Origin: a virus
Reading direction: 5' to 3' (one strand)
DNA: 24,535 bases
IMG/VR virus record: IMGVR_UViG_3300030110_001802
Coordinates: 1 to 24,535 of that record
Within the stretch, counting starts at the first letter, position 1; every line of letters starts with the position of its first letter. Below the pieces are notes generated by a model, which was given only the letters and a program-made list of their open reading frames with translations, did not search any database and was not told the DNA's origin. The translations under genes were made by a program, and so were the position numbers. Below, piece by piece: positions 8,454 through 13,910 of this stretch.

Positions 8454-9128
8454 ATGGCATCATTACTGGGAAGTAATTACTTACCCACCGAATACCAGTC
8501 TTTCATTCACATGTCTAGGTATTCACGTTGGTTAGAAGACGAAGGTAGAAGAGAGAGTTGGAGTGAAACAGTAGGTAGACTTGTGTCTTTCTTCAAAGAA
8601 CATATAGATAATAATTATGATGGTGTAATTAAAAAGAAAGAATGGAATGATTTAGAAGAAGCTATTCTTTCATTACAAGTTATGCCAAGCATGAGAGCTT
8701 TAATGACTTCAGGTAAAGCATTGGAACGTGAGAATGTAGCAGGTTATAATTGTTCTTATATTCCTATTGATAGTCCCAGAGCATTTGATGAAGTACTATA
8801 TATACTTATGAATGGTACAGGTGTAGGGTTCTCTGTTGAAAGACAGTATGCTGATAAGCTTCCTACTATTCCTGATGTAGAGTTTGAACATACAGAAGAT
8901 GTAGTAGCTGTTGTTGATTCTAAAGAAGGATGGGCAAAAGGATTTAGAGATTTAATATCCTATCTCTACACAGGTAGAGTTCCTAAGATAGATGTAAATA
9001 AAATTAGACCTGCAGGTGCAAGATTAAAAACATTTGGTGGTAGAGCTAGTGGACCTCAACCTCTTGTTGATTTGTTTGGCTTTCCTCTATGGAATGCCAT
9101 GATATTGTTTGTAAGACAGGTGAGGTAG
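8454..9128 (+). CDS. Class II ribonucleotide reductase, N-terminal part (gene interrupted)
   Basis: An AAGGAG site precedes this ATG. The 224-aa product matches the N-terminal half of monomeric adenosylcobalamin-dependent ribonucleotide reductases, which convert ribonucleotides to deoxyribonucleotides for phage DNA synthesis. It shows MPSMRALMTSGKALERENVA, then YNCSYIPID with the first redox cysteine near residue 99, NGTGVGFSVERQ and GGRASGPQPLVDLF. After LVDLF (ending at 9077) homology stops and the frame runs through unrelated residues to a stop. The next homologous codons start at 9080 in another frame. About 14-15 conserved residues of the family are missing at the junction, so this looks like a frameshifting deletion of roughly 43 bases or an assembly error. 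The complete gene would normally be called nrdJ. Confidence 0.8.
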   Translation: MASLLGSNYLPTEYQSFIHMSRYSRWLEDEGRRESWSETVGRLVSFFKEHIDNNYDGVIKKKEWNDLEEAILSLQVMPSMRALMTSGKALERENVAGYNCSYIPIDSPRAFDEVLYILMNGTGVGFSVERQYADKLPTIPDVEFEHTEDVVAVVDSKEGWAKGFRDLISYLYTGRVPKIDVNKIRPAGARLKTFGGRASGPQPLVDLFGFPLWNAMILFVRQVR

Positions 9129-10348
9129 TAGTTGTAGGTGGTGTACGTAGATCAGCACTTATATCTTTATCTAATTTATCTGATCAAAGAATACGTGCTG
9201 CTAAAATGGGTGAATGGTGGAATGAAAATCCACAACGAGCATTAGCAAATAACTCTGTAGCATACACAGAGAAACCAGATCCCGGTATCTTTATGAAAGA
9301 ATGGTTATCATTATATGAAAGTAAATCAGGTGAGAGAGGTATGTTCAACAGATCATCTGCTCAAAAGAAAGCTGCAGAGAATGGTAGACGCAATGCTGAT
9401 TGGGATTTTGGTACTAATCCTTGTAGTGAAATTATACTTAGACCTAATCAATTCTGTAACTTAACTGAAGTTGTGTGTCGTTCTACTGATACTATGACTA
9501 CATTAGTAAAGAAAGTTAAGCTTGCTACTATACTAGGTACAATACAATCTACCTTTACAAACTTTGGTTATCTTCGTAAGAGATGGCAGAACAATACAGA
9601 AGAAGAAAGATTGCTTGGTGTATCTCTGACAGGTATCATGGATTGTGTTGAGCTGAATACTATTGATGGGCTTGCACCTAGATTAGAACTGTTAAAGAAA
9701 CATGCAGTAGATACTAACAAAGCTTTAGCAGATAAGTTAGGCATACCACAATCAACAGCTATCACTTGTGTTAAACCTTCAGGTACTGTGAGTCAGTTAG
9801 TAGATAGTGCTAGTGGTATACATGCTAGACATAATCCTTATTATATTAGAACAGTAAGAGGTGATAACAAAGATCCATTGACAGAGTTCATGATAGCATC
9901 TGGTATTCCTAGTGAACCTGATTATTTAAAACCAGAACATACTACTGTATTTTCTTTTCCTATGATGTCACCTAAAGGTTCAGTATGTAGAACAGACATG
10001 ACAGCTATTCAACAATTAGAGATATGGAAATGTTATGCTAAACATTGGTGTGAACATAAACCTTCTGTAACTATAAGTGTTAAAGAAGAAGAGTGGGTTC
10101 CAGTTGGTGCATGGTGTTGGGAAAACTTTGAGTATCTAAGTGGTGTATCTTTCTTACCTTTCTCTGATCATACATATCAACAAGCACCTTATCAAGATAT
10201 AGATGAGAAGACTTATAAGAAGTTAGTAAAAGCTATGCCAACTAATATTGATTGGAATAAACTACAAGACTTTGAGAAAGAAGATAATACGAAAGGATCA
10301 CAAGAACTTGCATGTACTGCAGGGGTATGTGAATTGGTGGACATATAA
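9089..10348 (+). CDS. Class II ribonucleotide reductase, C-terminal part (gene interrupted)
   Basis: Homology actually begins at 9080 (Leu-Ser-Ser before MECHDIVCKTGE), three codons upstream of the first ATG. It continues with VVVVGGVRRSALISLSN. The radical active site is intact: NPCSEI near residue 111 and FCNLTE near 122 give the thiyl and redox cysteines. KPSGTVSQL is present, and the C-terminal CTAGVC (Cys409, Cys414 of 419) is the swinging dithiol that regenerates the enzyme. There is no Shine-Dalgarno sequence before the ATG at 9089, so this part is unlikely to be an independent gene. Without the N-terminal cysteine and specificity region it should not be functional alone. No NrdB or metallo-cofactor partner lies nearby, which fits class II. 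Confidence 0.8.
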   Translation: MECHDIVCKTGEVVVVGGVRRSALISLSNLSDQRIRAAKMGEWWNENPQRALANNSVAYTEKPDPGIFMKEWLSLYESKSGERGMFNRSSAQKKAAENGRRNADWDFGTNPCSEIILRPNQFCNLTEVVCRSTDTMTTLVKKVKLATILGTIQSTFTNFGYLRKRWQNNTEEERLLGVSLTGIMDCVELNTIDGLAPRLELLKKHAVDTNKALADKLGIPQSTAITCVKPSGTVSQLVDSASGIHARHNPYYIRTVRGDNKDPLTEFMIASGIPSEPDYLKPEHTTVFSFPMMSPKGSVCRTDMTAIQQLEIWKCYAKHWCEHKPSVTISVKEEEWVPVGAWCWENFEYLSGVSFLPFSDHTYQQAPYQDIDEKTYKKLVKAMPTNIDWNKLQDFEKEDNTKGSQELACTAGVCELVDI

Positions 10349-12796: not shown

Positions 12797-13203
12797 TAGT
12801 GCCCTACTCCGTTACCATTTTTTCTAACTTTTTCTTTTAGTTTTTCTACATCCTCTTGTATCTTTTCTACTTGTCCATGTAAAAATTCTAAGTTTACTTT
12901 GTTGTGCATCCCATCTTCTAATAACTGCTCATGTTTAGCAATCACACTTGTAAGATGTTCTATTAACATAAACTGTTTAGCATCATCAGGTAAAGAACCT
13001 AGTTCACCTCGAGGCCAGAGGATTCTAAAGTTTGTATTCTTTTCTATATCAGAGTTAACAAGTTTATAATTTGTTTCTATATTATTAATACGTTCTATCA
13101 CACCGAAGTATGCCCATACTGCTACAGCAACAGCTATAACAATACTTAAAATATTTCTAATACTTAAATCAACTCCTGTATCTTCTCTAATCTTCATCGC
13201 CAT
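12796..13203 (-). CDS. Membrane-anchored coiled-coil protein (135 aa)
   Basis: Of the ATGs at 13212, 13203 and 13197, the one at 13203 has AAGGA at eight bases and is preferred. One transmembrane helix near residues 16-35 (NILSIVIAVAVAVWAYFGVI) is followed by a long, mostly helical domain with coiled-coil character at the C-terminus (VEKIQEDVEKLKEKVRK). The topology is compatible with N-in, C-out, as in inner-membrane spanins or other lysis-associated proteins. The neighbours include a holin-like protein and an Rz1-like lipoprotein, so a lysis role is plausible but unproven. Confidence 0.6.
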   Translation of the reverse strand: MAMKIREDTGVDLSIRNILSIVIAVAVAVWAYFGVIERINNIETNYKLVNSDIEKNTNFRILWPRGELGSLPDDAKQFMLIEHLTSVIAKHEQLLEDGMHNKVNLEFLHGQVEKIQEDVEKLKEKVRKNGNGVGH

Positions 13204-13303
13204 AATCCACATCCTTATCTACCATGCAATCACATTGATCACCACATAAACAAATCTCTCCTGTGCAGTTAGGCATTCCACATTTACATTCTTCTATTGA
13301 CAT
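13187..13303 (-). CDS. Cys-rich 38-aa peptide
   Basis: GGGAG six bases before the ATG at 13303 is a good ribosome-binding site. The product has seven cysteines within about 21 residues: ECKC, PNC, ICLC and QCDC, followed by a strongly acidic tail (MVDKDVDYGDED). Repeated Cys-x-Cys pairs suggest tight metal binding, like a very small metallothionein or zinc knuckle. It has no signal peptide. It overlaps the lipoprotein gene by ten bases and the following membrane-protein gene by 17 bases, so it is embedded in the operon. No family is recognised. Confidence 0.55.
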   Translation of the reverse strand: MSIEECKCGMPNCTGEICLCGDQCDCMVDKDVDYGDED

Positions 13304-13512
13304 AGCTGCTCCCATGCTTCGTTATGAATTAAAATTTGACGAGCAGTAGAGTTCGTTAATCTATCCTCATCTGATATAAGAATAGGTTCTATTAAAGAAC
13401 ACGAATTATTTACTGCGTTTCCACTTGTTAAGCAGCTTGTTAGTAACATCACTAATGGAAGTACGAGCAATGTCTGCTTTAAGTTTATCTTTTTTAGTTC
13501 TAAGTTTTGCAA
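13294..13512 (-). CDS. Rz1-like outer-membrane lipoprotein (putative o-spanin, 72 aa)
   Basis: The gene begins with TTG at 13512 inside the preceding gene in another frame, with AAGGA about ten bases upstream. After a short basic start (QNLELKKINLKQ) comes a hydrophobic signal LLVLPLVMLLTSC, with a lipobox ending at Cys27. The mature part is CLTSGNAVNNSCSLIEPILI, then SDEDRLTNSTARQILIHNEAWEQLC. This CxxIxPI...ISxED..T..TARQIL.HNEAWE..C pattern is a common small phage lipoprotein in lysis regions, often taken as Rz1-like. The nested arrangement is typical of Rz/Rz1 pairs, whose products fuse the inner and outer membranes at lysis. Confidence 0.7.
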   Translation of the reverse strand: MQNLELKKINLKQTLLVLPLVMLLTSCLTSGNAVNNSCSLIEPILISDEDRLTNSTARQILIHNEAWEQLCQ

Positions 13513-13621
13513 CTTTCTTTAATCCTTTTTTGACAGCTGCATCAGCTCCAGCTTTCCTCATTAATATGAAAGGTAGGATTTTAGTAATAAGATTAGCTAG
13601 AGCTGAGACAAAAGAAAACAT
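13406..13621 (-). CDS. Small membrane-associated basic protein (possible i-spanin partner, 71 aa)
   Basis: The N-terminus (MFSFVSALANLITKILPFIL) is hydrophobic or amphipathic, and the rest is a basic helix (AAVKKGLKKVAKLRTKKDKL, then DVTNKLLNKWKRSK). The o-spanin-like gene starts inside it in another frame and overlaps it by 107 bases. That layout resembles an Rz gene with an embedded Rz1, although this protein is short for Rz and its coiled coil is limited. It could equally be a pinholin-like or other lysis protein. The ATG at 13621 lacks a clear Shine-Dalgarno sequence and lies three bases after the PqqA-like stop, so re-initiation is likely. Confidence 0.5.
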   Translation of the reverse strand: MFSFVSALANLITKILPFILMRKAGADAAVKKGLKKVAKLRTKKDKLKADIARTSISDVTNKLLNKWKRSK

Positions 13622-13624
13622 GTA

Positions 13625-13699
13625 CTAAATTTCTGCACATGCATAGCAATTAATCTCAAGACCTACTGCTATTTCTCTCATTATTGGTTTCTTCCACAT
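13625..13699 (-). CDS. pqqA: PqqA-like peptide (24 aa, putative PQQ precursor)
   Basis: A 24-codon frame (MWKKPIMREIAV, then GLEINCYACAEI) closely resembles PqqA, the ribosomally made precursor of the redox cofactor pyrroloquinoline quinone. From memory, Methylobacterium PqqA shares W, P, the E-I-x-V-G-M/L-E core, Y and the A-E-I end at the same spacing. Glu15 and Tyr19 form the E-x3-Y pair that the radical-SAM enzyme PqqE cross-links with help from PqqD. A strong AAGGA site lies eight bases before the ATG, within the end of the holin-like gene, whose stop is four bases away. No pqqB, C, D or E is present in the window, so the peptide would need host enzymes or has another role. Two extra cysteines (18 and 21) are unusual. 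Confidence 0.7.
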   Translation of the reverse strand: MWKKPIMREIAVGLEINCYACAEI

Positions 13700-13703
13700 G
13701 GAA

Positions 13704-13910
13704 TTATTCCTTCCCAGTTTGTTTAGCTTTACCTATATTTAAGGCAGCCCATTCAAGCAACTTGTATACTTTACCAAGTGCTGAATTTGGATCAGGGGTT
13801 TTAGTTCCTGCTATTACTACACTAGCAACAGTTACTATAGATGTAACAGCAGCTATTATCTCAGGAGACATTGCCCATAATTGTTGTATAAGTCCTACTT
13901 CTTCAGTCAT
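13704..13910 (-). CDS. Holin-like small membrane protein (68 aa)
   Basis: A strong GGAGG site precedes the ATG. The protein has a short polar N-terminus, one hydrophobic segment (PEIIAAVTSIVTVASVVIAG, about residues 16-35) and a conserved-looking tail TKTPDPNSALGKVYKLLEWAALNIGKAK. Small phage proteins with one membrane helix followed by TPDPxxxxGKxYKxxEWxALNIGKAK are often annotated as holins. The nearby spanin-like genes support a role in membrane permeabilisation at lysis. No endolysin is adjacent, so the identification stays tentative. Confidence 0.55.
   Translation of the reverse strand: MTEEVGLIQQLWAMSPEIIAAVTSIVTVASVVIAGTKTPDPNSALGKVYKLLEWAALNIGKAKQTGKE

Follow-up and report, generated by a model that had tools for sequence, protein, structure and literature searches.

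The 24,535-nucleotide stretch of IMG/VR record IMGVR_UViG_3300030110_001802 analysed here (the window) comes from a marine phage and carries a stand-alone pqqA gene within its lysis cassette and, judged from its sequence, this gene encodes a genuine PqqA peptide. We consider it quite probable that the peptide is produced late in the infection cycle and passed on to the PqqB-E proteins of the host, raising PQQ for the host quinoprotein dehydrogenases. With good but somewhat lesser confidence, we further propose that stand-alone pqqA is a general and largely overlooked metabolic gene of phages infecting PQQ-making bacteria, and that several phage groups with no relationship to one another have acquired it in a "substrate-only" form, the variant being matched to the PqqA type of the host.

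The pqqA gene comprises 24 codons, running from an ATG to a TAG (Table 1). A preliminary description of this DNA had based its assignment on Trp2, Pro5, Gly13, Glu15, Tyr19 and a C-terminal Ala-Glu-Ile, all of which are present; the peptide thus possesses the W, P, G and E-x3-Y residues at standard spacing and falls within the length of approximately 22–29 amino acids that defines the family. The Shine-Dalgarno site claimed for the gene was also located. Comparison with the PqqA models, proposed as a check, gave scores above both curated cut-offs: 28.4 bits for PF08042 (cut-off 21.1) and 31.1 bits for TIGR02107 (cut-off 20). This is the single PF08042 match in the whole record, and 14 control genomes contained no match above the cut-off. 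The window has a single W-P-G-E-Y match, and 100 shuffles of it have none. A scan of window proteins revealed no further pqq gene, and tblastn found no PqqB-E in the window, as had been stated previously; pqqA here is a stand-alone gene and not part of a pqqABCDE operon. Stand-alone pqqA copies occur in cells too, which indicates that a pqqB-E neighbourhood does not define the PqqA family. PHROGs has no family for the window peptide, and a PDB search with it returned no match.

Table 1. Features of the pqqA region of the window
Feature	Position	Strand	Evidence
pqqA, 24-amino acid PqqA precursor peptide MWKKPIMREIAVGLEINCYACAEI (stop codon included)	13625..13699	-	PF08042 and TIGR02107 matches; kept in 8 related contigs
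E-x3-Y core from Glu15 to Tyr19; in known PqqA, PqqE links these two residues	13643..13657	-	sequence
Shine-Dalgarno AAGGAA, ~8 nt 5' of the pqqA ATG, within the 3' end of the preceding gene	13707..13712	-	sequence; site kept in related contigs
68-amino acid hydrophobic protein, holin-like by position (unproven)	13704..13910	-	weak match to phrog_9685 (unknown function)
Rz-like inner-membrane spanin	13406..13621	-	phrog_1026 Rz-like spanin, E 6e-4
Rz1-like lipoprotein spanin, whose gene overlaps that of Rz out of frame; a longer ORF with a TTG start reaches 13512	13294..13494	-	phrog_1275 Rz-like spanin, E 1e-19

The placement of the gene inside a lysis cassette was borne out, since it is flanked by the small hydrophobic gene and the Rz/Rz1 spanin pair. 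Its start lies 4 nt past the stop of the former, and the Rz-like spanin starts 3 nt past its own stop. Promoter- and terminator-like sites showed no excess over shuffles. The presence of a phage DNA polymerase, a primase-helicase and spanins in the window, together with isolates possessing the same kind of gene, identifies this as a genuine phage genome and not contamination. Beside the spanins is a gene for a 42-amino acid cysteine-rich protein (13187–13315, minus strand) with a weak, below cut-off match to metallothionein; it is retained in related phages at 51–100% identity.

Related contigs were gathered via the neighbouring genes, giving eight others which cover the pqqA site, some of them near-identical (contigs read: L003, L004, L626, L627, L628, L629, L625/L149, L630/L005 and L631/L002). 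The search for the same microgene in related genomes, which the preliminary description had suggested, was successful: all eight have pqqA at the same site, between the same two neighbours, with the frame, Glu and Tyr kept. In the further members the 68-amino acid gene and Rz show 72–77% and 81–89% amino acid identity, respectively. Residues 11–24 of PqqA are invariant across the lineage and all codon changes there are synonymous, the variable positions being leader residues 4, 6, 7, 8 and 10. More distant relatives contain the same lysis cassette without pqqA, from which it follows that the gene is dispensable for the cassette and is gained or lost as a unit.

More than 300 PqqA genes were found in IMG/VR among the matches listed in degenerate-pattern scans. 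The first two scans used W-P-G-E-Y patterns in which E and Y were forced, with at least 120 matches each; at least 241 in-frame matches were obtained, all of which decode to stand-alone peptides of 23–29 amino acids. Because E and Y could not vary in these patterns, another two scans were made in which their codons were unconstrained. Both residues were kept in 240/240 of the matches listed, comprising 119/119 of the window type and 121/121 of the GFEVTMY type, and the core of the 119 window-type matches listed is in every case GLEIN[CS]YACAE. Pooled pN/pS among distinct phage pqqA genes was 0.23 (97 genes) and 0.27 (161 genes), values which ignore kinship and include some pattern-fixed residues, and the synonymous sites are highly diverged (pS 0.60–0.67). 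These ratios, obtained for the selection check proposed at the outset, argue for purifying selection acting on the PqqA core. The annotated neighbours of the other phage pqqA genes include GroES, portal, NifU, holin, major head protein, head-tail adaptor, terminase and ribonucleotide reductase (RNR), positions which suggest, though they do not prove, late expression. One cellular entry, PANU01000007.1, binned as Flavobacteriaceae SAT25, combines pqqA with phage polymerase, exonuclease and RNR genes, and its genome lacks PqqE; it is probably a misbinned phage.

In order to survey named phages, 50,697 phage records were searched by tblastn with PqqA of the GFEVTMY type. Nine records of methylotroph phages contain pqqA, namely P19250A, MEP301, Venkman, MEP401, MEP402 and four Melnitz isolates; the only other records with methylotroph-type PqqA are one uncultured phage and one bacterial-looking contig. 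The last of these, CAKLQF020000010.1 ("Acinetobacter phage MD-2021a"), was rejected as phage evidence: pqqB, pqqC, pqqD, a moaA-annotated radical-SAM gene and ppk adjoin the match, a row of genes that looks like a piece of bacterial chromosome. Methylotroph phages MEP431–434, named in the taxonomy, are not among the matches and may not be in the searched collection. Venkman, MEP301 and Melnitz represent three distinct viral groups (PMC10580990). None of five inspected records (0/5) has PqqA annotated: the site has either no feature at all or, on the opposite strand, a "hypothetical protein" gene that overlaps it; such opposite-strand genes, deposited in a Melnitz record (L594) and in MW202481.1 (L595), are probably wrong calls.

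Whole-record HMM searches revealed PqqA in 5/5 methylotroph phages tested and in 0/9 Pelagibacter or Roseobacter phages, among them HTVC115P, HTVC103P and HTVC104P. These three, which infect SAR11/Pelagibacter, are the closest cultured relatives of the window phage by DNA polymerase. A tblastn search with the window peptide itself found no match in named phages, which means that its PqqA type is without a cultured representative in that collection. The window phage thus resembles P19250A, MEP301, Venkman, MEP401/402 and Melnitz in having a stand-alone PqqA above the cut-off, but theirs is of the beta/gammaproteobacterial type (GFEVTMYVMNK) and lies at other genome positions, whereas that of the window is of the alphaproteobacterial type.

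Candidate hosts were sought by scanning 84,980 species genomes for EIN[x]YACAE, which among the matches listed occurs mainly in alphaproteobacteria and in some acidobacteria. The closest cellular peptides among these matches, MWKSPVVREVAVGLEINCYACAEI and MWKKPEIREVAVGLEINCYACAEL (e.g. in L371 and L387), are identical to the window peptide at 20/24 positions, and their genes are each directly upstream of pqqB, C, D and E. The operon PqqA of these marine alphaproteobacteria is also like that of the window in length, in its two cysteines and in its tail; it differs in lying in an operon, the window gene being alone in a lysis cassette without pqqB-E. Among the matches listed, the genomes with the nearest peptides are mostly 1.0–1.7 Mb in size and belong to one family of marine alphaproteobacteria. 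They are labelled Rhodospirillaceae, Alphaproteobacteria or Candidatus Pelagibacterales, and we suspect that they are AEGEAN-169/HIMB59-type organisms. PqqE scored above the cut-off in 24/28 genomes examined of this family, and a PQQ alcohol dehydrogenase did so in 8/10 host genomes tested. Based upon peptide similarity over 24 residues, we infer that this family may include the host of the window phage. The preliminary description had recommended looking for pqqB-E elsewhere in the phage genome or in the host: candidate hosts possess the complete pqq operon along with PQQ dehydrogenases, and no pqqB-E was found in the phage.

Cys18 and Cys21 had been called unusual and a possible basis for a different cross-link. 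Both are present in the operon PqqA of the best-matching hosts and are, therefore, normal in that group; since host PqqA has the same cysteines, they are no pointer to a different cross-link and we rejected this idea. In cells, an alphaproteobacterial metagenome-assembled genome (L348, 2141–2819) contains three tandem pqqA copies, and several related marine genomes contain 2–5, some away from pqqB-E.

The maturation and dehydrogenase genes were sought in 50 PqqA-bearing phage records, many of 30–170 kb; five are complete isolate genomes, and fragments among the rest could hide genes. PqqE above the cut-off was found in 0/50 and a PQQ alcohol dehydrogenase in 1/50, and none of the viral loci examined contained PqqB-E. 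Phages thus appear to carry the substrate gene without the maturation genes. The one record with a dehydrogenase (IMGVR_UViG_3300025120_009955, 72 kb) combines pqqA with a full-length PQQ alcohol/methanol dehydrogenase, resembling the Lake Baikal report discussed below.

PqqA is consumed in PQQ synthesis, one PqqA per PQQ, which means that a phage with this gene would supply a consumable substrate and borrow the enzymes. The suggestion that phage PqqA could feed host PqqB-E is supported at the level of sequence by the model matches, the kept frame, Glu and Tyr and the constraint on the core, by phages without maturation genes and candidate hosts with the pqq operon and PQQ dehydrogenases, and by the association with methylotroph phages. 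We infer that the gene is probably expressed late, and that modification of its peptide and a rise in PQQ would follow, to the benefit of the phage. In this scheme pqqA would be translated from the late lysis-cassette message, and host PqqD/PqqE would bind the phage peptide and cross-link Glu15 to Tyr19. A host protease, PqqB and PqqC would then complete PQQ, and the extra PQQ would load the host quinoprotein (methanol/alcohol) dehydrogenases, sustaining the energy supply during infection. Since PqqA is consumed, a phage which shuts down host expression yet needs quinoprotein activity would gain by supplying the peptide, with the longer-lived host enzymes presumably remaining. Cell-free extract turned added PqqA into PQQ at 70–80%, and one methylotroph has five pqqA copies (PMC9851590). 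When single genes were raised in Gluconobacter, the gain in PQQ was greatest for pqqB, followed by pqqA and then the others (as cited in PMC7936290), and in work on PQQ engineering PqqA does not clearly emerge as the one limiting step (PMC9851590, PMC7936290).

Perhaps the peptide is instead a decoy which occupies host PqqD/PqqE, lowers PQQ synthesis and turns host metabolism from periplasmic oxidation. A PqqA-like peptide without maturation enzymes could compete for PqqD/PqqE, and it retains the leader, the putative PqqD-binding segment. A decoy need not, however, keep both reacting residues, as the phage peptides do in all 240 matches listed from the free-codon scans, and the combination of pqqA with a PQQ dehydrogenase in one Baikal phage population (PMC7678222) and in the 72-kb record fits supply, not inhibition. 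We regard a decoy as improbable. It is quite improbable, too, that host PqqE cross-links the peptide and that something other than PQQ results, e.g. a signalling molecule or an antimicrobial RiPP. The E-x3-Y core is what PqqE acts on, and the phage has no protease, PqqB or PqqC of its own that would commit the peptide to PQQ; but the phage peptides match host operon PqqA over their whole length, the C-terminal tail included, and no dedicated maturation gene was found beside phage pqqA.

The location of pqqA, with a hydrophobic gene on one side and the Rz/Rz1 spanins on the other, would suit a recruited small protein with a membrane or lysis-timing role, and a lysis or signalling function had indeed been offered as the alternative. 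A lysis role is nevertheless very unlikely. The same cassette exists without the gene, the conserved part is the PqqE-reactive core, and the carrier phages show no consistent placement in lysis cassettes: elsewhere pqqA adjoins structural, GroES, NifU, RNR and other genes, which makes the lysis cassette one site among many and argues against such a function. A chance match or a decaying remnant from the host, to which the shortness of the gene and the 20/24 identity of the host copy might point, is scarcely credible given the lack of matches in shuffles, a pN/pS of about 0.25 and a frame, core and Shine-Dalgarno site kept across diverged relatives. Supply of PqqA to the host pathway is thus the reading we favour.

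The statement that PqqA is not an established phage gene was nearly right, but one explicit proposal exists: in 2020 a study of Lake Baikal proposed a phage PqqA accompanied by a phage-encoded methanol dehydrogenase (PMC7678222). Like the window, the methylotroph phage population described there, VP_266, encodes a PqqA proposed to raise PQQ; its pqqA is accompanied by the phage methanol dehydrogenase, whereas the window has neither a dehydrogenase nor another pqq gene, and the type of host predicted for it is different. Viral pqqA was also listed among phosphorus genes in a 2026 reservoir survey (PMC13188868). We found no mention of pqqA as a phage gene in OM43-phage papers and a global ocean survey; this coverage of the literature is incomplete and we do not claim priority. 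Phage PqqA itself having been reported before, what is new is the breadth of its distribution, the fact that isolates carry it unannotated, the pattern in which phages bring the substrate alone, and its alphaproteobacterial type.

Like psbA, mazG and phoH, general auxiliary metabolic genes of phages, pqqA is a host-like metabolic gene kept by phages; it differs in encoding a substrate consumed one-for-one and not an enzyme or structural subunit. Prodigal, a common gene caller, ignores genes under 90 nt and would thus miss a pqqA of 72–75 nt, which is a likely reason for its being overlooked. If our proposal is true, gene callers that skip genes under ~90 nt hide pqqA from virome surveys. In surface waters, PQQ-dependent methanol/alcohol oxidation is a significant pathway for carbon, and if phages of methylotrophs and of small marine alphaproteobacteria routinely carry pqqA, infection may keep or raise this oxidation and the shortness of the gene would have kept it out of published surveys of phage genes. 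The gene might also serve as a simple host marker, in that PQQ producers are the probable hosts of phages with pqqA. The existence of cultured methylotroph phages with pqqA makes the idea directly testable.

The window also contains a gene for a B12-dependent RNR (8454–10348, plus strand), which is broken into two ORFs (8454–9128 and 9089–10348) that overlap and do not share a frame. In the near-identical contigs L005 and L002 it is one continuous frame; the split is a frameshift in the window contig, real or assembly-made.
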